From Pancytospora philotis (Eukaryota > Microsporidia): a DNA stretch of 64,000 nucleotides. Below, piece by piece: positions 692 through 61,890 of the stretch; within the stretch, counting starts at the first letter, position 1; every line of letters begins with the position of its first letter. The notes below the pieces were generated by a model. The model was not told where the DNA came from. It saw only the letters and a list, made by a program, of their open reading frames with translations, and searched no databases. The stretch spans positions 1-64,000 of the forward strand of contig JALRLY010000268.1 of the NCBI GenBank assembly GCA_023647555.1. Direction: 5' to 3'. The translations under genes were made by a program, and so were the position numbers.

Positions 692-1381
692 CTACACGCG
701 CATCCTAAATTCGTTCCGCACAGAGCGTATGAACTCGTAGAAGTCGCCGCCCTCCTTGAACATGTAGTTCAGCTTCTCCAGATTCAGCTCGGGCACGCAG
801 TCGGTGATTGCGCCGCCGGTGCTGAAATCGATGACCAGGTAGCACTCCGCGCCGAGGTAGAAGAACTCGAGCTTGAGCGCCCGGTCCTTGACCCTGGAAA
901 TGTCGATCCCCATGTACCTCCGGTAGCTCTCGCCGGCGCTCTTCAGCTCCGTGATCTTGGCCTCGTGCTTTTTCCTCATGACGAGCAGCTTCGTCTGCAG
1001 GCTGTCGCGCTTCCCCTCGGCGTCAGCCTTCAGCTCCAGCAGCCGCGCGTTCGTCTGCGCGAGCCCCTCGATCTGCGCCTGCAGCTGCTGGTTGTCGGCC
1101 TCGAGCCGCGCGAGCTCCTGCACGTCCTTCTCCCTGATGCCCTGGACCGAGGCCCGGCGCTCGATCAGCGTGTGCGTCTGCGCCCTGAGGTCCTCGAGCA
1201 TCTTCGTGAGCCGCAGCACCTCGCCGTTGAGCCTGCGCTCCTCGAGGCCCTGCGTCTCGTTCATCCGCGCGAACTTCCGCTTGAGGTCGTTGACCCTGTT
1301 CGTCATGTTCTCGGACACGTCCGCCGCCAGCTTCCTGACGGCCTTCGCCGCCGAGTCCTCGCATTCGTAGCCGCCCGACAT
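692..1381 (-). CDS. SPC25: Kinetochore protein Spc25 (Ndc80 complex)
   Basis: This 229-residue protein has a long coiled coil (about residues 20-145, leucine/glutamate/arginine heptads) followed by a globular C-terminal domain. That is the Spc25 layout. The globular part opens with a Y-R-R-Y-M-G-I-D-I segment like the family's conserved YxxxLGLxI entry. It closes with an LNYMFKEGGDFYEFIRSVRNEF helix, the counterpart of the LN..nDf..Fik.mR..F ending of Spc25. With Spc24 it anchors Ndc80-Nuf2 to the inner kinetochore. An AT-box (AAAATTTTT, 1400-1408) lies 18 bp upstream of the ATG. Assignment rests on domain order and C-terminal pattern; another Spc24/25-type subunit is the main alternative. 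Confidence 0.72.
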   Translation of the reverse strand: MSGGYECEDSAAKAVRKLAADVSENMTNRVNDLKRKFARMNETQGLEERRLNGEVLRLTKMLEDLRAQTHTLIERRASVQGIREKDVQELARLEADNQQLQAQIEGLAQTNARLLELKADAEGKRDSLQTKLLVMRKKHEAKITELKSAGESYRRYMGIDISRVKDRALKLEFFYLGAECYLVIDFSTGGAITDCVPELNLEKLNYMFKEGGDFYEFIRSVRNEFRMRV

Positions 1382-1630: not shown

Positions 1631-2602
1631 TCAAGACTGATCTTCGCTAGTCCCGCATAAGGCACACCCCATGGGACTCAAGCTAAAAGCTGAGATGAAC
1701 GCGGCGGAAGACAGTTTAGCGGCGGCGCTCGAAGAGAAATCGAGTCTGCGCAGCTCGGCAAGCATCAGCAGCGCGGTGTTCTCGTCGCAAGTGCTGCTGC
1801 ATTCAGCATCGGGCTCCGTGATACGCTGCATAAGCGGCGAAGCTACAGCGGGTGTATCCTTTATATCCGGTGCTTCATCTGTGTCAGGTAATGCCTCGCA
1901 TTGTTTGCTGCCGCGCGCCGTGTGCGACAGTGCCGCGGGGGCTGCGTCTGCGCCGTGCATGCGCCGTGTGTAGCAGCGCGAGAAGAACAGCGCGCCGGTC
2001 GCGAAGTCGCTGCGCACCAGCAGCCCTTCGAAAAAGGCCCTGGCCGGCGGCGCCCTGCAGCCCTGGAAATGCGACATGAGCCTGCTCTTTGGGTCGTCTT
2101 CGAAGCTTTCGATCTCGGCCGTGCTCACATAGGGATATGCCCTTTTGGCACTGAAATTCGACCAGGTAGAGCTGAAGCACGTGCGGCGCCTGAGCGCGTT
2201 TCGCACGCTGCTCTGCGTGCCGGCGGCGCAGTGGCCCTGGCAGCCCGAGCAGCGGTCCTTGAAGATCCCGGCCCAGAACGAGTGGAGAGCGCGTGCATCT
2301 AGAATGTTCTTGTCGGCGTTGGCTGCGCTGCTTCCGAATATAGGCTCGGGCTTGGGGTGGCTGAAGCATACGACCAGCCCGGGCAGTGCGCCCAGGACCG
2401 CCGAGGCGAAGGTGCGCGACACGCCGCGGCAGCAGCCGGTGGAGTCCAGCAGGGCCAGGTAGGTTGTCCCGTTGCGGGTCTGCGTCAGCAAGGCAGTAGC
2501 AATAACGCCGTCGCAGAACAGAATGTACAGCGCATAGCCCGCGTCCCGCGTGCAGGTGACGGCCAGTGCACGTCTACAACCCACTACGCAGCTGCACGCC
2601 AT
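1631..2602 (-). CDS. RTT109: Histone H3-K56 acetyltransferase Rtt109
   Basis: Rtt109 acetylates H3 Lys56 (with Asf1) and H3 Lys9/27 (with Vps75) on newly made histones. The 323-residue protein shows the fungal signature blocks in order: an LALLDSTGCCRG strand, a PEPIFGSSAANADKNILD block matching the PEYLFpxSxxNxxKHxLxxxxLxxWW region, and FEDDPKSRL. The last contains the acidic pair and the lysine that is autoacetylated in yeast Rtt109. It continues into an FFEGLLVRSDFATGALFF segment. The start is placed at 2602, not the upstream in-frame ATG at 2677, because 2677 overlaps the end of the RVB2 gene and an AT-box (2613-2621) sits 11 bp before 2602. A cysteine-rich insert (CSGCQGHC) splits the middle. 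The C-terminal third is low-complexity. Confidence 0.8.
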   Translation of the reverse strand: MACSCVVGCRRALAVTCTRDAGYALYILFCDGVIATALLTQTRNGTTYLALLDSTGCCRGVSRTFASAVLGALPGLVVCFSHPKPEPIFGSSAANADKNILDARALHSFWAGIFKDRCSGCQGHCAAGTQSSVRNALRRRTCFSSTWSNFSAKRAYPYVSTAEIESFEDDPKSRLMSHFQGCRAPPARAFFEGLLVRSDFATGALFFSRCYTRRMHGADAAPAALSHTARGSKQCEALPDTDEAPDIKDTPAVASPLMQRITEPDAECSSTCDENTALLMLAELRRLDFSSSAAAKLSSAAFISAFSLSPMGCALCGTSEDQS

Positions 2603-2612
2603 CCGGATGGAT

Positions 2613-2621
2613 AAAATATTT
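2613..2621 (-). promoter_or_regulatory. AT-box deciding the RTT109 start
   Basis: AAAATATTT in the 65-bp gap between RVB2 and RTT109. It lies inside the longer open frame, so it argues for initiation at 2602 rather than 2677. Confidence 0.5.
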
Positions 2622-2667
2622 CTGTGCTCTTTTTGCACTGCATACAACTCAATAATACAGCTATCGG

Positions 2668-3798
2668 TTATTCGCATTTATTTACGGATTGTGCGGCCCG
2701 GAAGAGCCCGCTCGATTTCGCAATGAGCTCGGTGGACAGCCGCCCAGCCTCGGTGCTGAGGTACATGATTTGCATCGCGTGGCTCAGCCCGTGCTGCTGC
2801 GCCAGCGCACCCAGCATCTCACCCGCCTCGTCGCTGAGCTCGATGCGCAGGAAGCGCGCACGGGCGGCGAATATGCTCGCCAGGGCGGCGGGGGTCGGCG
2901 CCTCGATGCGCAGGACGAAGGCCTTGTCCTTCAGTAACTGCGGCGCCTTCTCGCACAGCAGAACGACCAGCGGCGCGAACTCAGCGTTCTTGTAGTCGGC
3001 GATCAGGCCGAGCAGCGGCGCGGCCAGCGCATCCGCGTCGTGGATGACCAGCACGCCCTTGCTGACCGTCGCCTTGTCCTCGGTGACCCACGTTCTCACC
3101 TTCCGGTCCACCTCGGCCTGCACCCCCGGCGAGACGTGCACGCGCCTGTACAGCAGCTCCTCCGCCTCCTCTTTGTAGTTGATGACGTCCAGCTCGTCGA
3201 GCGACAGGTCGGTGCTCACCGTCTCGGTCTTGATGCACTCGCCCTCGGGCAGCTCCACGACCGGCACGAAGCTGACCTCCTGCGCGGCCCTCGTGGCTGC
3301 CGACCGGCCGAGCTTCGTGACGAACCCGGACTCCTTGTATATCCTCACCACGCTGCCGACGCCCGCGCGCTCCTTCTCCAGCTCGGCGCCTATTCTGTGC
3401 CCGATGTCGAACACGGACTCCATGTCCACCGTCTTGAGCGTGAGCTTGGACGCGCTCATCGCCACGATCTCGCCCTCGATGACCTTGAGGTTCTCGCGGA
3501 AGCTCAGCCGCACCGCGCGCCGCATCAGCTTGCCCACCTCCTGGTGGCCGCCCGCCGCGAAGTCGTGCGCTCCGACCCAGAGCGGCTTGGCGCCCTCGGC
3601 CTTCAGCGCCTCCGCGAGGAACGCGCTCTTGCAGGCGCTCGCCGGCCCCTCGAGCACGGCGATCGCAGCCTTCGGCGACTCGACGAGCCTGCGCACGAGA
3701 CTGGCCATCTGCGCGGTGTTCGCGTGGTGCACGTACCCATCCTCCTGCTCGGAGATATGCGCGTGCGATCTGAGGCGCAGCGCGTTTTCGTACCTCAT
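2668..3798 (-). CDS. RVB2: RuvB-like protein 2 (Rvb2/reptin), degenerate ATPase
   Basis: Rvb1 and Rvb2 form the AAA+ ring of INO80, SWR1 and R2TP. Family membership is clear from the OB-fold insertion region: IEGEIVAMSASKLTLKTVD, then GHRIGAELEKERAGVGSVV, FVTKLGRS and, later, LSLDELDVINYK. The last is the Rvb2 form (Rvb1 has DVANARPQG). The ATPase motifs are eroded. Walker A is GPASACKS (51-58; expected GPPGTGKT), Walker B is VLVIHDAD (249-256; expected VLFIDEVH), and sensor 1 ATN is replaced by CEK. At 376 residues it is shorter than the usual 460-470. An AT-box is at 3820-3827, and CCC directly precedes the ATG. No frameshift or stop interrupts it, so it looks like a functional pseudo-ATPase rather than a pseudogene. 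Confidence 0.82.
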   Translation of the reverse strand: MRYENALRLRSHAHISEQEDGYVHHANTAQMASLVRRLVESPKAAIAVLEGPASACKSAFLAEALKAEGAKPLWVGAHDFAAGGHQEVGKLMRRAVRLSFRENLKVIEGEIVAMSASKLTLKTVDMESVFDIGHRIGAELEKERAGVGSVVRIYKESGFVTKLGRSAATRAAQEVSFVPVVELPEGECIKTETVSTDLSLDELDVINYKEEAEELLYRRVHVSPGVQAEVDRKVRTWVTEDKATVSKGVLVIHDADALAAPLLGLIADYKNAEFAPLVVLLCEKAPQLLKDKAFVLRIEAPTPAALASIFAARARFLRIELSDEAGEMLGALAQQHGLSHAMQIMYLSTEAGRLSTELIAKSSGLFRAAQSVNKCE

Positions 3799-4179: not shown

Positions 4180-7100
4180 ATGGACGAGCGGTTCGTGACG
4201 ATGCACAGCCTCACGCAGATCATCGACCGCATGTACCCTGAGATGATAACGCGGCAGGAGGTGGTGAAGATGCTGCAGATGCTCAAGCGGCACCGCAAGG
4301 TGTCGCTCAAGGAGATTGCCGATCTGATTCTGTACATCGCGGACACGTCGCACCGGGAGTGGAACGTGGAGGTGATTCTGAGCGGGATCAACGAGTCGTT
4401 CGAGAGCATCAACTGGCGCGGCGTGTACGAGAAGTTCGTGGAGGAGGATCTCAAGATCTGGAACGCCGAGTATCTCTACACGCTCGTGGACTGCTGGGTG
4501 CGCGTGTCGGGGATCATCACCGTGCCGTACGAGGTGTTTTTCCGGCCGTGGAGGAACGTGGAGAACCAGATCGATTTCTTGCGGATTCTGCTGGAGAGCG
4601 ACGAGAAGCGCACGCAGGTGTATTCCAACATATTCTTTGAGAAGATCGTGACGAAGGAGGAGGTCCACACCTCCAAGTTCAAGAAGACGCTCGAGTACGA
4701 GAGCAATCTGAATTCGGTGGAGCTGTTCAAATGCATCCGGGATCTGCAGGCGCGCGGGCTGATCGATCTCGTGCGCGCCGCCTCGCCCGAGTACTGCGCG
4801 CTCGGCCTCGCGTCGGTGCGGCCGTTCTGCGAGGACGTGTTCGACGATCTGTTCGTGTCGTTCTGCGACAGCGCGGCCTCGAGCTTTGTGCTGCACATGC
4901 TGTTCACCAAGTTCCAGGCGGACATTCTGCATGTGTTCCGACGCGTCTCCGACCGCATCTCCCTGACGCGCATCCTCGACATCTTTCTCGAGCACAAGAT
5001 GCTGCCCGTGGTGACTGAGATCCTGGAGCCCAAGGACCTCTGCTTCGACATCATCATCCTCTCGTCGCGGCGAGACCATCTCAACCTGGAGGTGTGGCTC
5101 AGCAACAACCTGGACAACTGCGCGGAGGACTTCGTCGACTATCTCTGCCGCAAGCTGCCGCTCACCGGCACGGGCGCGGCCGAGCCGCCGAAGGACGACG
5201 CGGAGATCTTCCCGTTCGACCGGAACCTGGTCGGCTGCGTGCTTTCTGTGCTGTCGGAGGCGAAGCTCAGCGAGGCGCTGCAGCTGCGCGTCGGCGAGAT
5301 GAAGCGGCGCATGCTCGAGTCGAGCGTGCTTGACCGCACGAGCGCGCTCGACCGCGCCACGCAGTTCATTTCGGAGATCATCAACTCGCACGTGGGCGTG
5401 GACGAGTCCATCGCGCGGCTGGAGGCGCTGATCCGCGGGGACGGGCAGTCGCTCACCTTTGCAAAGAGCGTGTTCGGGCTGCTGATTGACAACTATTCGA
5501 GCCTGTACAAGCTGCCCAACTCGGACATGCTCGCGGTGTTCTTCGGCGAGCTGATCAAGCGCCGGATATTTCTCAAGCCGTTCATGAAGGTCGCTCTCCA
5601 GCTCATCAAGAAATCGCTCTCCTTTCCCGACCGCGAGCGGGAGTACGCGTTCGCCTTCTGCATCCTGGAGGTGTTCCTCGCGGATAATCCCGAGTTCTTC
5701 GCCGAGATCGAGAGCATTGAGACTGTGCGCACTAGTCTGATCAGAAAGGAGATGATTCTTGTCGATGAGTCATCGCAGACGGGCGTAGAGCTCGACACGC
5801 TGCTCGAGGTTGCGCTCAACCGCGAGGGCCTGGCCGAGTACGCGCGCAACGAGGACCGGGACTGGAAGGAGCTGTGCAGGCGCGGCGACGGGAAGAAGAA
5901 GGACGTGTCCGTCGGGATCGAGGCCTACCTCGCGCGCTTTACCACTGCCGGTGCCTCAGAGAGCGGCTCGGTGGACGACGGCAACGCGGGCGGCTTTCCT
6001 GCGTGCGGCGAGGAGAAGTACCCCAGGGACCTGCTGCTTGTGTTCCACATGCTGCGCTCGCTGCCCAAGAACCAGCAGTTCTTCATGCGGCTGGCCGAGC
6101 ACGAGGGCCCCGAGTTCTGCTCCCTTCTAGTCTCTGTGGGCTTCAAGACCCTAACCAACAGCTTTCTCTACCGCATCGAGGACGAGGCCGAGTACTTCAG
6201 ACGGCTCGGCACTTTCCTCGGCGCGCTGACGATCGCGAAGAACAAGATGATCAGCCTCGATGCGTTCGACTTCAAGAGCTTCATCCTAAAGTGCATAGAG
6301 TACCGGCGGATCACAGTCTGTGTGTACTTCACGGCGCATTTCCTGCGGGAGGGCAAGCGCGGGATCCTCTACGTGCCGCACAACCCGTGGCTGATGGCGA
6401 TCCTGGATCTGCTTGCGGAGCTCTACGTCTGCACGCTCGTCAGCATACGCACGGTGATCAGCGATGTCTTTGAGCACTTCGGGCTGAAGATGGTGGTGCG
6501 GCCGGTGACGCGCACGAAGGAGTACCTCGTGAAGTACGTGGTGTCGTACGACGGCGTGCTGCGGCAGGTGATTTCTGCGGCGCTGGACTTTTCCGTGCGC
6601 GAGATTTCGAACAAGGTCGTGCGCTCGTCGCTGGGCGTGACGAAGGTGACGGCGGTGCAGATCTTCAAGCGCATCATCAGGGGCGCTGCGCCGGACACAG
6701 CCTGTGCGGGCTGCTCGAGCAAGCACGACGCATGCGAGGATGCCGAGGCGTGCGGCGGCATCGCCGAGTTCTTCCGCTGCGGCGCGCGCAACTTCTTCAT
6801 TTTCCGGAACCTGTTCGTGAATCTTTCGCGCGCGCTCGTGCACATTTCAGCGCAGGAGCCGCTCAAGGCCTCGATCTGCGGCAACGTGACGCACTTTCTG
6901 AAGCTGAGCATGAACGAGCTGGCGCCGGACGAGATTTACCAGATCGCGATGGCCAACCTCAAGGGGTGCTGCGCGTTTATTGAGAAGGTGTGTGTCACGC
7001 AGGTGAACGAGATCGCCCCGGACGTGTACAAGGAGATGCTGCGCGAGCTGGAGACGGAGAGCAGCATGCGCATGTGCACCGAAGAGGAGAACGGCCCGGC

Positions 7101-8772
7101 CACCATACACAACATGGTGCAGCAGATGGGCTGCGTGAGCAACCTGGACATCATCAGCGAGTCGCGCTTCGTGGAGAAGACGCACGTGCGCTCCATCGAG
7201 AACGCGGAGTACCAGGAGATCAAGAGCTATTTGCTGCAGCTCGGGCGGCGCATGCCGCTGCGGCGGAACAACTTCATCGGCGACGAGTGGCCGCTGCTCC
7301 TCGGCGAGAACCGCGACGAGCACGTAAAGAGCGTCATTCTTTTCCTCGAGTCTGCGCCCGACCGCGATGCGCAGTGCCTCAGCATCTGCAAGTACCTCGT
7401 CGGGCACGCCATAAAGGTCGGCTGCCGCGATGCGTTCCTTTTCGATCTGATCGTGCGGGTCTTCGAGATTTCGCCCAAGACGAAGCGCGAGGTCGTGGGG
7501 TGGCTGATCTACTCCGACGACTCGAAGCGCCACAACATCCTTCTGATCCGGACATTCGTGGAGTACGACCTCATCAACCTCGAGGAGTTCGACCAGGCGC
7601 TCTCGCGCAGCCTGAAGAGCGACGATCTCAAGGCCGTCTCGTTCGTGCTCGACCTCCTCGCCGCGCTCATGCTGGGCTCGGTGCAGCTCTGCACCGTCTA
7701 CGACTTCATCCACACAATAGAGACACTCAACCGTATGAACGACAACCCGCGCGTCTTCGACTTCTTCAAGCACATCGAGCTCGGCATGATGAAATTCGCG
7801 GACTCGTCCGACACGAGCTTCGACACGGCGCTCAAGACCATCCGGCTGAACGCGCCGCCCGCTGCGATCCGCGCGGCCTTCAGCGCAAAGTACACGCTGA
7901 ATCTGCCAGCGGCCTTCAAGGCGGCCTGGCACCATTTCGTGCTCTACACGGGCGCCTACCGCTTCTTCAAGGTCGATCTCCTCGCAGTCTTGGCCAAGGA
8001 CGCGCTCCAGCCGGCGCTCAAAGAGGCGCTCGGGCTGCTCGTGCAGGCGTACTCCAAGCGGCACTACCTCTTCTTCATGTTCTTCTGCCGCTTTCTTTGC
8101 AAGGTCCTTGATGAGGTCGATGACACGCCAGAGAATAGAGTCCTCTTCTTCAAGCTGCTTGAGCTGCTCGTGCCCTCCTCCCTGCCTGGCTTCGCCGCCC
8201 AGTTCTTCGAGGTCATCGACCACCGCTTCGTTACCAAGTTCCTGGCACGCGGCGAGGCGTTCTTCCTCTACCGCGAGCTGCTCGAGCTGCTGGCCGCGAA
8301 CGCGCGCTACGAGCAGCTCGTCACAGCCTTCTTCGTAAAGAACAACAGCTTCACGAAGAAATACAACCTGTACCTCTCGTATCTCTGCCCATCCGAGTAC
8401 CCGGCGCTCAAGAACCTCTTCAACCAGACCAGGGCGGGCGCAGTCATAGAGAAGGCGTCGAACCCGTTCTTCGCCGCGTACTACAACCTGTCCAAGCACC
8501 TCAGCGTGAGCACCAGCTACGACATCCTCATCGACAATCTGAACGAGCACAACTCAGTCACCATATACGCCCTGGACCGCCTCGCAAGCATACTCGATCT
8601 GGCGCAGGGAGCGCACCGCGAAGAGATCGTGCTCGCGCTCCTCATCCGCCGGGCCGCGGCCAACACCCCGCAGGGCATCGTGCTTGCGTGCGAGGAGCTG
8701 TTCGCCCGGCCGAAGATCCGCGAGATCGCCGACCGGTACAACGAGCTGTTTTTCAAGGACAGCATCAAATAA
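4180..8772 (+). CDS. NOT1: CCR4-NOT complex scaffold Not1
   Basis: Not1 is the scaffold of the CCR4-NOT deadenylase. The 1530-residue protein aligns by eye in several blocks. One is the MIF4G-like block with LGALTIAKNKMISLDAFDF and NPWLMAILDLLAELY (human CNOT1 has LGLITLARN and NPWTMGILSLLAELY). Next is the CAF40-binding DUF3819 region with repeated AALDFSVREI and a LFVNLSRALVHISAQEPLK helix. The C-terminal Not1 superfamily domain has a CPSEYPALKNLFNQ segment matching the IPPNCIQLRNLILSA region. The open frame begins at 4015, but the start at 4180 is preferred: an AT-box followed by GGGG lies at 4137-4149, and GGGCCCTA directly precedes this ATG. Divergently transcribed from RVB2. The stop codon is embedded in an AATAAA. 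Confidence 0.85.
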   Translation: MDERFVTMHSLTQIIDRMYPEMITRQEVVKMLQMLKRHRKVSLKEIADLILYIADTSHREWNVEVILSGINESFESINWRGVYEKFVEEDLKIWNAEYLYTLVDCWVRVSGIITVPYEVFFRPWRNVENQIDFLRILLESDEKRTQVYSNIFFEKIVTKEEVHTSKFKKTLEYESNLNSVELFKCIRDLQARGLIDLVRAASPEYCALGLASVRPFCEDVFDDLFVSFCDSAASSFVLHMLFTKFQADILHVFRRVSDRISLTRILDIFLEHKMLPVVTEILEPKDLCFDIIILSSRRDHLNLEVWLSNNLDNCAEDFVDYLCRKLPLTGTGAAEPPKDDAEIFPFDRNLVGCVLSVLSEAKLSEALQLRVGEMKRRMLESSVLDRTSALDRATQFISEIINSHVGVDESIARLEALIRGDGQSLTFAKSVFGLLIDNYSSLYKLPNSDMLAVFFGELIKRRIFLKPFMKVALQLIKKSLSFPDREREYAFAFCILEVFLADNPEFFAEIESIETVRTSLIRKEMILVDESSQTGVELDTLLEVALNREGLAEYARNEDRDWKELCRRGDGKKKDVSVGIEAYLARFTTAGASESGSVDDGNAGGFPACGEEKYPRDLLLVFHMLRSLPKNQQFFMRLAEHEGPEFCSLLVSVGFKTLTNSFLYRIEDEAEYFRRLGTFLGALTIAKNKMISLDAFDFKSFILKCIEYRRITVCVYFTAHFLREGKRGILYVPHNPWLMAILDLLAELYVCTLVSIRTVISDVFEHFGLKMVVRPVTRTKEYLVKYVVSYDGVLRQVISAALDFSVREISNKVVRSSLGVTKVTAVQIFKRIIRGAAPDTACAGCSSKHDACEDAEACGGIAEFFRCGARNFFIFRNLFVNLSRALVHISAQEPLKASICGNVTHFLKLSMNELAPDEIYQIAMANLKGCCAFIEKVCVTQVNEIAPDVYKEMLRELETESSMRMCTEEENGPATIHNMVQQMGCVSNLDIISESRFVEKTHVRSIENAEYQEIKSYLLQLGRRMPLRRNNFIGDEWPLLLGENRDEHVKSVILFLESAPDRDAQCLSICKYLVGHAIKVGCRDAFLFDLIVRVFEISPKTKREVVGWLIYSDDSKRHNILLIRTFVEYDLINLEEFDQALSRSLKSDDLKAVSFVLDLLAALMLGSVQLCTVYDFIHTIETLNRMNDNPRVFDFFKHIELGMMKFADSSDTSFDTALKTIRLNAPPAAIRAAFSAKYTLNLPAAFKAAWHHFVLYTGAYRFFKVDLLAVLAKDALQPALKEALGLLVQAYSKRHYLFFMFFCRFLCKVLDEVDDTPENRVLFFKLLELLVPSSLPGFAAQFFEVIDHRFVTKFLARGEAFFLYRELLELLAANARYEQLVTAFFVKNNSFTKKYNLYLSYLCPSEYPALKNLFNQTRAGAVIEKASNPFFAAYYNLSKHLSVSTSYDILIDNLNEHNSVTIYALDRLASILDLAQGAHREEIVLALLIRRAAANTPQGIVLACEELFARPKIREIADRYNELFFKDSIK

Positions 8773-8810: not shown

Positions 8811-9794
8811 CTAGAGGTACTCCATGGCCCGCTGCTCTTTCTCGTGTGTGTCCAGGCCGGCGGCGTAAAGCAGCACGATGTCCTTCTCCGTGCAGTCCCC
8901 GCAGTCCTTGAGGATCCGCTGCACGTAATCGGCGCGTATCTCCTTCGGCTCGCTCTTGAGGTAGGCCAGGCACTTCACGAGCGCTGCGAGCTCCGTTGCC
9001 GGTTTGAGGGACTTGTAGAAGGCGCGCAGCTCGGCGCGGCTGCGGCCCCAGTTCGAGACAAACTTGAGCAGCTCGTTCTCCTGCGAGCCGCGGACGAAGT
9101 TCTTCATGAAGTGGACCGGCGTGCTTAAGCAGTCCTGCTTCCCCTCGTTGAGCAGGGTAATCTCGCGCTCCCTCTTCGTGGGGCTCGGGATGTCTGCGCC
9201 GCCGAGGTTCCTCAGCTGCTTAGCGACGGCCTCGCAGCCGCCTGAGTACTTGCCGTCGAGCTTGTGCAGCTGCTCGCTGAAGCCCTCGCTGTCGGCTGCG
9301 TGGCAGTACGCGGTATTGTACTCGAACTCAGCGGCGCACGCGCGGTCCTTGAAGCTGGGCTTGCTGATGGGCGTCTCTATGCTGCCGCTGTACCGGGGCG
9401 CCATGTACGACGGCCTGAAGCGCCCGCTCTCGCTGAGCTGCGCCATCGCCTCCATAGCGGCAAGATTCACCGCAAACTCCTCCGCCCGGCCGACACTGGA
9501 CAGCAGCTTGTGCGCACGCGCGTAGTAGCCCAGGTTGTACAGGCACTGCGCGGTAAGCACCGTGCAGCCCTCCCCCGACAGCCGCTTCAGCACCGACAGC
9601 GCCTTCTTGAACCTCCGCAGGCTGTACAGCACGTACGCGTGCTCGAAGGTCCCCTTCTCGACGAGCTCGAGGGCCGTGTCGTACCGCCCGAGCTGTATCG
9701 CAGCAACGGCCCGGTGCTTGTTGAAGCGCTCGTCACACACCGCCAGAACGCCCTCGTGGTCCTGCGCCTCGATGCATGCGCGGATGCGGTCCAT
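8811..9794 (-). CDS. SRP72: Signal recognition particle subunit SRP72 (TPR part)
   Basis: SRP72 binds SRP68 through its TPR superhelix and contacts SRP RNA through a C-terminal basic motif. This 327-residue protein carries TPR units: AAIQLGRYDTALELVEKG, HAYVLYSLRRFKKALSVLKR and AQCLYNLGYYARAHKLL. An EFEYNTAYCHAA segment follows, matching the ELLYNTACxL element of SRP72. It is about half the usual length and ends soon after the TPR region, so the long lysine-rich RNA-binding tail is missing. An AT-box is at 9817-9825. It is convergent with NOT1, the stops being about 40 bp apart. Confidence 0.72.
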   Translation of the reverse strand: MDRIRACIEAQDHEGVLAVCDERFNKHRAVAAIQLGRYDTALELVEKGTFEHAYVLYSLRRFKKALSVLKRLSGEGCTVLTAQCLYNLGYYARAHKLLSSVGRAEEFAVNLAAMEAMAQLSESGRFRPSYMAPRYSGSIETPISKPSFKDRACAAEFEYNTAYCHAADSEGFSEQLHKLDGKYSGGCEAVAKQLRNLGGADIPSPTKREREITLLNEGKQDCLSTPVHFMKNFVRGSQENELLKFVSNWGRSRAELRAFYKSLKPATELAALVKCLAYLKSEPKEIRADYVQRILKDCGDCTEKDIVLLYAAGLDTHEKEQRAMEYL

Positions 9795-28175: not shown

Positions 28176-29903
28176 CTATTCATCATCGGACGCTGAATCA
28201 TCCTGCTCTTTGGGCGCAACGTATGTCAGAACGCGGTTGATCTTCTTGCATTCGCGTGTGAGCGCATTTTTGGTCTTAGCCGGGATGCTTTTGAAGGTCC
28301 CGCCGAGCATCGCGTTCAGCTCCACGAAGTCGTCCTTGAGCAGCCCCGTCTGCACGATGAGGTCGACGCACGCCTTCAGGTCGTCCTGCCTGAGACAGGC
28401 CATGAACTGCTGGTCGAGTATGTAGAGCGCGTAGTTGCTGAGCTCGTGCCGCTCCATGCGGTACGCGCAGCGCGCCTGCACCTCGCCGAGGATGCGCTGG
28501 TGCTTGCGCAGTCGCGACATCTGGCCGAAGTAGCCGGGGAAGTCGATCCGCGTGTTCAGGGCGAGCCCGCGCGTCGGGTACACGCAGCTGAGAAAGGCGT
28601 GGTGCGGCATCAGCGACCAGTCCTGCTCGGCACCGTGGATGTATGTGTCGTGCATATCGGCCAGGCTGATCGACTCCGCGGCCCGCTGCAGCGCCGCGAG
28701 CTCCATCCGGCAGTGCGTGTAGTTCTCGTGCACGAACAGCGGGAGAAAGGCGTAGTCCTCGAAATACGCGTCGATCTTGTCGCTGATCTTACGGCGCGAG
28801 AAGAGGTCGGTGGTCAGCTCGAAAGGCCCGCGCGCCTGGTTCTTGGACGTCAGGCTGCCGAACAGCCCCTGCGCTGCGACCTGCTCGCGCGCAACCAGGC
28901 TCTGGAGGGTGTTCAGTATGTAGCGCATGTCGCTGTTGCAGCTGGCGATGACCTCATTGAGGACATGGTCGGCAAGGCTCTTCTGCTCGGCCCGCAGGAT
29001 CTCCTTGACGCGCGGGAGCACCGTCCGCGCATCGAGCTTGCGGAAGCGCACGTCCAGGCAGTGGCCGGCGAGCGTGCGCATCTTCGGATGCGACCTGTCG
29101 TTGCATATGCAGATGATCGGCATCTTCGCGCGCTTGATGATGCCGATGAGCTCGGGAATCCCGCCGCGGTCGCTCGACATGCCGTCGACCTCGTCCATGA
29201 TCAGCACCCTGCTCTGCACCGTCAGGTCTCTGCTGATCGTGCGGCTGTCGGACAGGGCGCCGACCATCTCCGCCAAGCTGCTCTTGTTCCGCAGGTCGCT
29301 GGCGTTGAACTCGATCGCCTCGAGCCCGTTCAGCGCGCACAGCAGATGGGCGGTGCTCGTCTTGCCGACGCCCGGCGGGCCGCTCAGCAGGGCAGCCTTG
29401 CTCTGCGAAACGCCCCGCAGATACTCGTCGAGCTGCGCAACCGCGGACGCGTTGCCGAGCAGCTCGCCGCGCGTCTTCGGCCGGTACTTCTCGGACCAGG
29501 GCTGGGAGCGCGCGGGCGCCTCCGTGTTCCTTTGCTCCGAGTGCGCGGAAAAGTCGCAGCTGTCGGTGTACTCGCTGCTGCTCACAGCGTTGGAAGCACG
29601 CACAGGGCTCGGCGATGCGCTGTTTATCGTGGTGCTGATGACGCCGCTGAGTGCCGGGCGCGCGCGCTCGACCAGCGTGGTGAACTTATCCTCGTCGAGG
29701 ACCTTCAAGCCGAGGCCGCGCGCTTTCTCAATTTTTGCGGCGCCCGGCTCGGCGCCGGCGACGAGATGCGTGGTCTTGCCGGAGATGCTGGTGGTGACGC
29801 GCGCGCCGAGCGTGGTTGCCATCCTGCGCGCCTCGTCCCTGGGCATCTTCATCTCGCCCGTGAACACGAAGACATAGCCGTCCAGCGGGCACTTCTCGGC
29901 CAT
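28176..29903 (-). CDS. RFC1: Replication factor C large subunit (Rfc1)
   Basis: Rfc1 is the large subunit of the clamp loader that opens PCNA. The 575-residue protein has an N-terminal BRCT domain (about 5-80: DGYVFVFTGEM, then GARVTTSISGKTTHLVAG), a linker, and an AAA+ domain opening with PWSEKYRPKTRGELLGN. Walker A is GPPGVGKTST and Walker B is VLIMDEVDGMS. The RFC1 collar domain follows, and the C-terminus is acidic. The start at 29903 is chosen because an AAATTT box (29923-29928) lies between it and the upstream open-frame ATG. It is shorter than yeast Rfc1 (861), mainly through loss of the basic N-terminal tail. Confidence 0.92.
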   Translation of the reverse strand: MAEKCPLDGYVFVFTGEMKMPRDEARRMATTLGARVTTSISGKTTHLVAGAEPGAAKIEKARGLGLKVLDEDKFTTLVERARPALSGVISTTINSASPSPVRASNAVSSSEYTDSCDFSAHSEQRNTEAPARSQPWSEKYRPKTRGELLGNASAVAQLDEYLRGVSQSKAALLSGPPGVGKTSTAHLLCALNGLEAIEFNASDLRNKSSLAEMVGALSDSRTISRDLTVQSRVLIMDEVDGMSSDRGGIPELIGIIKRAKMPIICICNDRSHPKMRTLAGHCLDVRFRKLDARTVLPRVKEILRAEQKSLADHVLNEVIASCNSDMRYILNTLQSLVAREQVAAQGLFGSLTSKNQARGPFELTTDLFSRRKISDKIDAYFEDYAFLPLFVHENYTHCRMELAALQRAAESISLADMHDTYIHGAEQDWSLMPHHAFLSCVYPTRGLALNTRIDFPGYFGQMSRLRKHQRILGEVQARCAYRMERHELSNYALYILDQQFMACLRQDDLKACVDLIVQTGLLKDDFVELNAMLGGTFKSIPAKTKNALTRECKKINRVLTYVAPKEQDDSASDDE

Positions 29904-60983: not shown

Positions 60984-61557
60984 GCTAGTATTAAAAGGTT
61001 TGCACGTATCTCATTTTGTGTTGTGTTCGTTATGCTGTTTATACAGCTTGTATGCATCTGTATAGTGTAATTGTAAAAGTGGTACGCTGGCTGTAAACAG
61101 GCACAATGCATTAAGTTTGAAAATCATGTTCATTCGCATGTCCTTTGTTTGCGGCGTATTTATTGTCCTGTAAGTTTAAGCGTAACCACTCTTAATATGG
61201 CAGCAGTTGCAATCAATAAAATATGCGTAACACGTATCATGGCACATAAATTGAGCGTCTACAATAGTCTTCATGCGATAGTACGCATCTGTAATAGGCA
61301 CTTAGCTGCAGTTTGTGCGTGCTTCTTTACTGTCGTTTGCATGGAACAGTATCGTTGCATTCTGTGTTTATTGCTGGGTTGCCGCTCTTGCTGCTGTTAT
61401 ATAGCAATTACTGCTTGCTTTAAGTCTCTGATTCATGCTGCTCAGCAGTATAACAGCTATTCAACACAAAGCGCTCGAATGCGCTGAGCGATACGAATAC
61501 TCTTTACATGCCGCGACTAAAAGTTTGCGATATCGACTTTCGGCCGCGCCAGCCCCA
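60984..61557. other. 574-bp AT-rich gap between GRS1 and IES6
   Basis: This gap is clearly richer in A+T than the coding regions. A cysteine-rich frame (61198-61487) has no start signal and no family resemblance. No tRNA or rRNA signature is seen. Confidence 0.4.
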
Positions 61558-61890
61558 ATGGACGGGACGGGTGCAAAGGACGTGTCGAGGTACAAGCTGA
61601 CGACGCGCGCCGCCACACCGGCGAAAAACAAGACGCTGAAGAACATGTATCGAGCCATGGTCGCGCAGGAGCATCCGTACCTCGCGCTCACCAAAATATC
61701 CGTCATGCCGCCGCGCCGGCTCTGCGATTTTACGGGGCTGCCTGCGCCGTACACGTGCCCGCGGACCTCCCTGCGGTTCTTCAACCTCTCTGTGTACAAG
61801 TACCTGCGGAGCCTGAGCTCCGAGCACAGCGAGAACTACTACAGCATTAAGATGTACGGCAAGAACCTCCAGAATGGTTCAAAGAAATAG
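61558..61890 (+). CDS. IES6: INO80-complex subunit Ies6 / YL1-C-domain protein
   Basis: The 110-residue protein has the YL1 C-terminal domain: PPRRLCDFTGLPAPYTCPRT, then SLRFFNLSVYKYLRSL, the family's CDITGLPAxYTDPxTxLRYxxxxxYxxI pattern. Upstream, KNKTLKNMYRAMVAQEHPYL corresponds to the KNLKQILxxE helix of INO80C/Ies6 rather than the long acidic N-terminus of Swc2/YL1. So Ies6 is favoured. Ies6 with Arp5 contacts the Rvb1/Rvb2 ring, and a degenerate RVB2 lies at the other end of this window. The start at 61558 is directly preceded by GCCCCA. An AGTAAATT element is at 61915-61922. Confidence 0.8.
   Translation: MDGTGAKDVSRYKLTTRAATPAKNKTLKNMYRAMVAQEHPYLALTKISVMPPRRLCDFTGLPAPYTCPRTSLRFFNLSVYKYLRSLSSEHSENYYSIKMYGKNLQNGSKK

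Follow-up and report, generated by a model that had tools for sequence, protein, structure and literature searches.

The window analysed here is a stretch of 64,000 nucleotides from Pancytospora philotis, a microsporidian parasite of nematodes. On its reverse strand, at 2668-3798, it carries a gene of 376 codons which runs from ATG to TAA with no internal stops and which encodes an Rvb2 (RuvB-like 2) protein. An earlier note on this DNA had placed and named the gene in the same way, and both the frame check and the profile comparisons bear it out. The Pfam TIP49 profile scores 112.5 bits (curated cut-off 23.8) and among solved chains those of Rvb2 are the best matches (1.4e-24), ahead of the best Rvb1 chain (5.7e-15). 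The TIP49_C AAA lid profile reaches 12.6 bits, below its cut-off of 24.5; the lid helices are visible in the structural model. The GC content at the three codon positions (0.666/0.419/0.915) falls within the values seen for five other window genes. The features to which we refer are as follows.

2668..3798, reverse strand: gene for Rvb2, a predicted pseudo-ATPase of 376 aa (TIP49 profile and Rvb2-chain matches, fold match of the model to Rvb chains)
3625..3648, reverse strand: Walker A equivalent, residues 51-58, GPASACKS (canonical GPPSTGKT), with K57 and S58 retained and Cys at the Gly before Lys
3199..3513, reverse strand: DII/OB-fold insert with its return strand, residues 96-200, the best conserved part
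3037..3051, reverse strand: Walker B equivalent from the alignment, residues 250-254, LVIHD (canonical LFIDE)
2944..2958, reverse strand: sensor 1 equivalent from the alignment, residues 281-285, LCEKA (canonical ASNRG)
2923..2943, reverse strand: residues 286-292, which in the alignment span the site of a deletion of the arginine-finger segment (15 alignment columns absent)
2776..2790, reverse strand: sensor 2 equivalent, residues 337-341, GLSHA (canonical GLRYA), Arg replaced by Ser
61558..61890, forward strand: likely Ies6, an INO80-complex subunit, 110 aa from the chosen ATG, with YL1_C at 61720-61806
1312-2550 of L002 (G000:C6): Rvb1 (P0004), 100% identical to the NCBI entry 'RuvB-like protein 1 [Pancytospora philotis]'

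Neighbouring genes match Spc25 (692-1381, reverse strand), NOT1 (4180-8772, forward strand; CNOT1 domains) and an SRP-type TPR domain (8811-9794, reverse strand). HAT_KAT11, the profile for histone acetyltransferases of the Rtt109/p300 type, is matched at 23.1 bits (cut-off 22.5) by the gene adjoining Rvb2 at 1634-2677 (reverse strand), whose longest frame begins within the 3' end of Rvb2.

The protein was aligned using MAFFT with Chaetomium Rvb2 (residues 60-438) and yeast Rvb2 (residues 28-314), and nine catalytic positions were compared (Chaetomium numbering): G77, G82, K83 and T84 of Walker A, D298 and E299 of Walker B, N328 of sensor 1, the arginine finger R352 and R399 of sensor 2. D298, N328 and R399 are among the pocket residues named in the available part of the Chaetomium structure paper (PMC4706439), and R352 was assigned as the finger by analogy with Arg358 of Rvb1 in the same text. 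At these positions P. philotis Rvb2 has G, C, K, S, H, D, E, K and S, identically under four MAFFT settings, where the letter at R352 in this and other finger-deleted proteins is a mere placement by the aligner. Three of the nine residues are retained, namely the first Gly, Lys57 and Ser58, with Ser counted for Thr. The earlier note had reported the loss of Walker A, Walker B and sensor 1. The second and third of these stand, since LVIHD replaces LFIDE, with H-D in place of the D-E pair, and LCE replaces ASN, with Glu in place of the sensor Asn. 'Lost Walker A' is an overstatement because Lys and Ser persist: GPASACKS departs from GxxxxGK[ST] at the Gly before Lys, and we reject a complete loss of the motif. 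Beyond what had been noted, a deletion removes the arginine-finger segment and Ser takes the place of the sensor-2 Arg. With these catalytic residues gone, hydrolysis is not to be expected, and the description of this Rvb2 as a natural pseudo-ATPase is supported at the level of sequence.

The remainder of the protein is recognizably that of an Rvb2. As had been noted, the OB insert and the Rvb2-specific blocks remain, the insert and a PEGEC neck block both being present in the alignment. Rvb chains are the best fold matches for the models of both P. philotis Rvb proteins, in which core and lid are folded as in Rvb; the strands of the OB insert are present in the Rvb2 model and its P-loop geometry survives (strand 46-50, loop residues 51-56, helix from 57). 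The protein thus resembles Rvb2/RUVBL2 of the INO80 core (Chaetomium, PDB entries 6FHS and 8OO7; yeast, PDB entry 8EU9) in its TIP49 domain, OB (DII) insert, PEGE neck and overall fold, but differs in lacking catalytic residues and the arginine-finger segment and in having an OB insert and lid that are shorter in the alignment.

Protein searches yielded at least six other Rvb2 proteins: one from P. epiphaga (P0006, annotated as partial), one from Glugoides intestinalis (P0007) and four of metagenomic origin. The first two protein searches for Rvb gave three and two matches among the best 7995 and 7996 candidates by shared words, and a region-limited one gave six, the query included, among 213. 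The matches listed include none from Encephalitozoon, Nematocida, Vittaforma or Enterocytozoon. Canonical Rvb entries exist for Encephalitozoon cuniculi. The comparison of Walker motifs that the earlier note had proposed could be made over seven proteins. All six relatives are degenerate, though not in the same way, and 24 of the 63 catalytic cells are retained across the seven, which are not independent rows since the Glugoides protein and meta0003 sit close together in the tree. Retention is uneven. In Walker A, G77 is present in 7/7, G82 in 6/7, K83 in 5/7 (Arg in the other two) and T84 in 2/7; elsewhere D298 is found in 1/7, E299 in 2/7, N328 in 1/7 and neither R352 nor R399 in any. The column of the Walker B Asp reads H, D, E, S, S, N, Y. 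The finger segment is deleted in six of the seven, while meta0009 retains part of it without the Arg. As the replacements vary by lineage they look like the product of relaxed constraint, whereas all seven lack the finger and the sensor-2 Arg, losses that may be ancestral to the set. The P-loop is under constraint: with the first Gly invariant, the Gly before Lys missing once and Lys or Arg always present, binding of nucleotide or phosphate may persist.

The OB insert is conserved across the seven proteins. Over columns identical in yeast and Chaetomium, conservation is 0.398 for DII with its linkers (94 columns), compared with 0.175 (45 columns) and 0.268 (81 columns) for the two core parts; a difference as large arose in 21 of 20000 permutations, with columns treated as independent. 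Yeast and Chaetomium Rvb2 show no such gap, their identities being 47/56 and 77/85 in the core parts and 86/105 in DII.

The other AAA genes of the genome serve as a control. A PF00004 search gave 20 scored matches from 30 candidates, several of them being domains of one gene; 19 of the 20 have GxxxxGK[ST] and 19 have a D[E/D] Walker B. The misses are shortened matches: that of L023 lies at a contig end and opens at position 32 of the profile, and that of L031 covers positions 1-47 only. Judged by these motifs, the decay of the Rvb pair is not shared by the other AAA matches scored. Degeneracy of different kinds in six relatives argues against a sequencing error, and with the other AAA genes intact we reject both error and pseudogene as accounts of Rvb2. 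A further comparison comes from Nosema ceranae, a microsporidian of another lineage, for which a primer pair has been published for a ruvb-like 1 helicase expressed during infection (PMC4320070, available in part). The Rvb1 of that species, known here from the primer, differs from that of P. philotis: translation of the primer gives PKGCGKTA, with which a canonical Walker A ends, and insofar as this P-loop is concerned the Pancytospora loss is derived.

The earlier note had offered two possibilities for the ring: that it depends on Rvb1 alone for ATP, or that it has become purely structural. The genome search with TIP49 found five places, two of which are Rvb proteins, the window gene and the Rvb1 gene listed above. 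The latter (P0004) matches Rvb1 chains best (1.3e-19; best Rvb2-type chain 1.2e-10). It has VVTK in place of the Walker B FIDE and IGQ in place of the sensor-1 ASN, and in the MAFFT alignment GDEAVCTN stands in the columns of the Rvb2 P-loops. The TIP49 match on this protein begins at profile position 101, beyond the P-loop. P-loop geometry is not preserved in the Rvb1 model, where only residues 81-82 separate the first strand from the helix that follows it. A profile-profile comparison of Rvb1 with Rvb2 left the P-loop region unaligned, and the Walker A call for Rvb1 accordingly draws on the MAFFT alignment, the model and the start of the TIP49 match. A metagenomic Rvb1 (P0005), 47% identical to that of P. 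philotis, has GAENVCRS, VVTK and TGE. The nucleotide pocket of Rvb1 looks abolished, and Rvb1 looks, from its residues, as dead as Rvb2. That Rvb1 too is without Walker A, Walker B and sensor 1 is new with respect to the earlier note. It contradicts the first of the two possibilities, the only other Rvb gene found being this one, and favours the second, which must be qualified in that Rvb2, unlike Rvb1, has a partial P-loop and may bind nucleotide.

A second, canonical RVB2 elsewhere in the genome would overturn this description, and none was found by TIP49 or TIP49_C in the 3.68 Mb (83 contigs) searched, which is less than the 4.2 and 4.6 Mb of published Pancytospora assemblies (PMC10393165, available in part). 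TIP49_C gave no gene at threshold in these 3.68 Mb, with 2/14 positive controls detected, and an NCBIfam comparison gave no useful match. The remaining three TIP49 places belong to AAA proteins of other kinds. Two of these (391 and 384 aa) have GPPGTGKT and MDE/IDE, and the third is Midasin-like (Midasin AAA lid; 26.6 bits, over the cut-off only together with its frame neighbours). On these grounds we reject a hidden canonical Rvb copy in the sequence searched.

The genome encodes partners for a ring of this kind. Four SNF2 genes were found, one ISWI-like, one INO80 and two others which we take to be CSB/Rad26-like and SMARCAL1-like; SWR1 is not among the four. The INO80 assignment (L007) follows from 608 bits to INO80 chains, compared with 447 to SRCAP and 428 to SWR1, and from the presence of a DBINO domain. 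Its motor motifs are intact (DDMGLGKT and LDEAQ). Between its lobes lies the insert whose counterpart in other species reaches into the Rvb ring; it measures about 114 aa (residues about 543-658), compared with 241 in Chaetomium. Within the window, the gene at 61558-61890 is likely Ies6 by its similarity: YL1_C scores 49.3 bits and the best solved relative is Ies6 (1.4e-7); a longer frame of 151 aa, starting at 61435, is possible. Arp5, with which Ies6 pairs in the known INO80 core, was not seen, a single actin-family gene being found in the genome search. For an INO80 with a motor and a likely Ies6, having no detectable actin-related protein would be unusual. The genome search also returned no matches for PIH1, FAT or PAPA-1 (Ies2), each run without a positive control, and none for zf-HIT, for which one control was detected, below the cut-off. 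HSP90 and Nop-domain proteins are present. In the available parts of two papers, INO80 is reported to occur in Encephalitozoon (PMC10158259) and in every species compared with Microsporidia sp. MB (PMC13174016); neither these parts nor that of PMC4320070 mention an inactive Rvb.

In our view, the data described above are probably best explained by a hydrolysis-dead Rvb1/Rvb2 hetero-ring that is kept as the scaffold of a reduced INO80 with an intact Snf2 motor. The two P. philotis proteins would be orthologues of the AAA+ proteins Rvb1 and Rvb2 that, to judge from their residues, can no longer hydrolyse ATP. They would presumably still form a hetero-ring, retained as the stator of the remodeler, while hydrolysis would be supplied by INO80's own Snf2 motor. 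The catalytic loss would have come after loss of the ATP-dependent clients (R2TP with the PIKK kinases, SWR1 and NuA4), and Rvb2 may still hold nucleotide as a static cofactor. On the simplest reading, the lineage would have dropped its turnover-dependent clients and retained the one for which a scaffold suffices. We count in favour of a scaffold that the OB insert, which mediates partner binding, is conserved above the core. Judging by entry titles, rings with apo Rvb2 have been solved, as has one called ADP-empty. The accessible text of one yeast study calls the ring of INO80 a stator and describes recombinant INO80 with mutant Rvb1/2 that positions +1 nucleosomes without the Rvb1/2 ATPase (PMC8163841); that mutant was made in the laboratory, whereas the loss in P. 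philotis is natural and occurs in several species. Counted against a scaffold are the constraint on the Rvb2 P-loop, the GEHSAGKS and LIIDD retained by P. epiphaga Rvb2, the lack of Arp5 and Ies2 among the genes seen and the short INO80 insert. To these we add Plasmodium falciparum RUVBL3, which is likewise an Rvb2-type protein of an intracellular parasite but which retains Walker A, Walker B and the sensors and hydrolyses ATP; its Walker A mutant does not complement yeast, so that the ATPase is needed there (PMC6053374, in the portion available).

Whether the scaffold would be empty or occupied divides two more specific forms of this explanation. In the first, a lineage of microsporidia that takes in at least Pancytospora and Glugoides would carry INO80 on a nucleotide-free, structural Rvb ring, with all sites dead and most or all of them empty after client loss (Rvb2 is the one subunit seen for Glugoides and P. 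epiphaga); we put this tentatively, at a little below an even chance. In the second, which is compatible with a scaffold and whose chance falls somewhat further short of even, the remnant P-loop of Rvb2 would bind ATP or ADP as a structural cofactor while Rvb1 is empty. The pattern of retained Walker A residues in the seven Rvb2 proteins (first Gly 7/7, Lys or Arg 7/7, Gly before Lys 6/7) argues for a loaded ring, as does P-loop geometry that is preserved in the Rvb2 model and not in that of Rvb1. The near loss of the metal-holding Walker B Asp (1/7), the complete loss of the sensor-2 Arg (0/7) and the Cys that P. philotis has at the Gly before Lys argue against it.

Conservation of the OB insert above the core would also suit an arrangement without a ring, in which Rvb1 and Rvb2 are each monomeric carriers of the insert and serve a client other than INO80. 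The deletion in 6/7 Rvb2 proteins of the arginine-finger segment, which lies at the interface, and the failure to find either Arp5 or Ies2 point the same way. Such an arrangement nevertheless seems unlikely to us, given that core and lid are Rvb-like in both models, that both subunits have been kept together and that an INO80 with its insert and a likely Ies6 are present. It is very improbable that these proteins are active ATPases with unusual residues. P. epiphaga Rvb2, with GxxxxGKS, IIDD and 5/9 catalytic residues, might be thought capable of slow turnover and P. philotis Rvb2 likewise, but the former is likewise missing both sensors and the arginine finger, and the latter lacks the Walker B Asp too. 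Least probable of all is that the gene is a pseudogene, an artefact of assembly or a paralogue accompanying a canonical copy: the difference between the sequence searched and the published assembly sizes leaves some room for it, but the frame is intact with coding base composition, seven Rvb2 proteins share a conserved OB insert, no other Rvb-like TIP49 or TIP49_C gene was found, and the other AAA genes are intact while both Rvb subunits are degenerate.

Natural pseudo-ATPase members of the AAA+ family that are kept for structure include ORC2/ORC3, clamp-loader subunits and the D1 ring of Pex1/Pex6, in which active sites persist elsewhere in the same assembly or protein. Dead AAA+ subunits are thus familiar, but in P. 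philotis both subunit kinds of the Rvb ring look dead, and a ring with the site lost from both would be new. In the available parts of the open-access literature searched we found no report of a natural Rvb pseudo-ATPase. The Rvb ring is normally essential and ATP-burning, and the role of its ATPase once it sits in a remodeler is unsettled, with yeast growth (PMC6053374) and +1 positioning (PMC8163841) giving different indications in the text available. RUVBL1 without ATPase activity does not support NMD, Fanconi or telomerase assembly, as related in PMC7707835 (part of the text). A lineage that has dropped both active sites while keeping the ring proteins and the INO80 motor would amount to a natural separation-of-function experiment. 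It predicts that Rvb ATP turnover serves other clients (R2TP/PIKK, snoRNP, SWR1, NuA4) or assembly rather than remodelling by INO80.

Three minor observations concern other proteins encountered in these searches. Glugoides intestinalis Rvb2 (P0007) is annotated as hypothetical protein GINT2_000514, and automatic annotation can thus miss degenerate Rvb proteins. The window also contains, at 28176-29903 on the reverse strand, an RFC1 homologue with a BRCT domain, an AAA domain (GPPGVGKT and LIMDEVD) and the RFC1 C-terminal domain. A two-domain AAA protein (730-aa frame), NSF- or Cdc48-like with Pfam and NCBIfam not deciding between the two, occurs twice on the same contig (G000:C59:7051-8286 and C59:32128-33363); the copies lie 25 kb from each other, have identical scores and are either a recent segmental duplication or an assembly duplicate.
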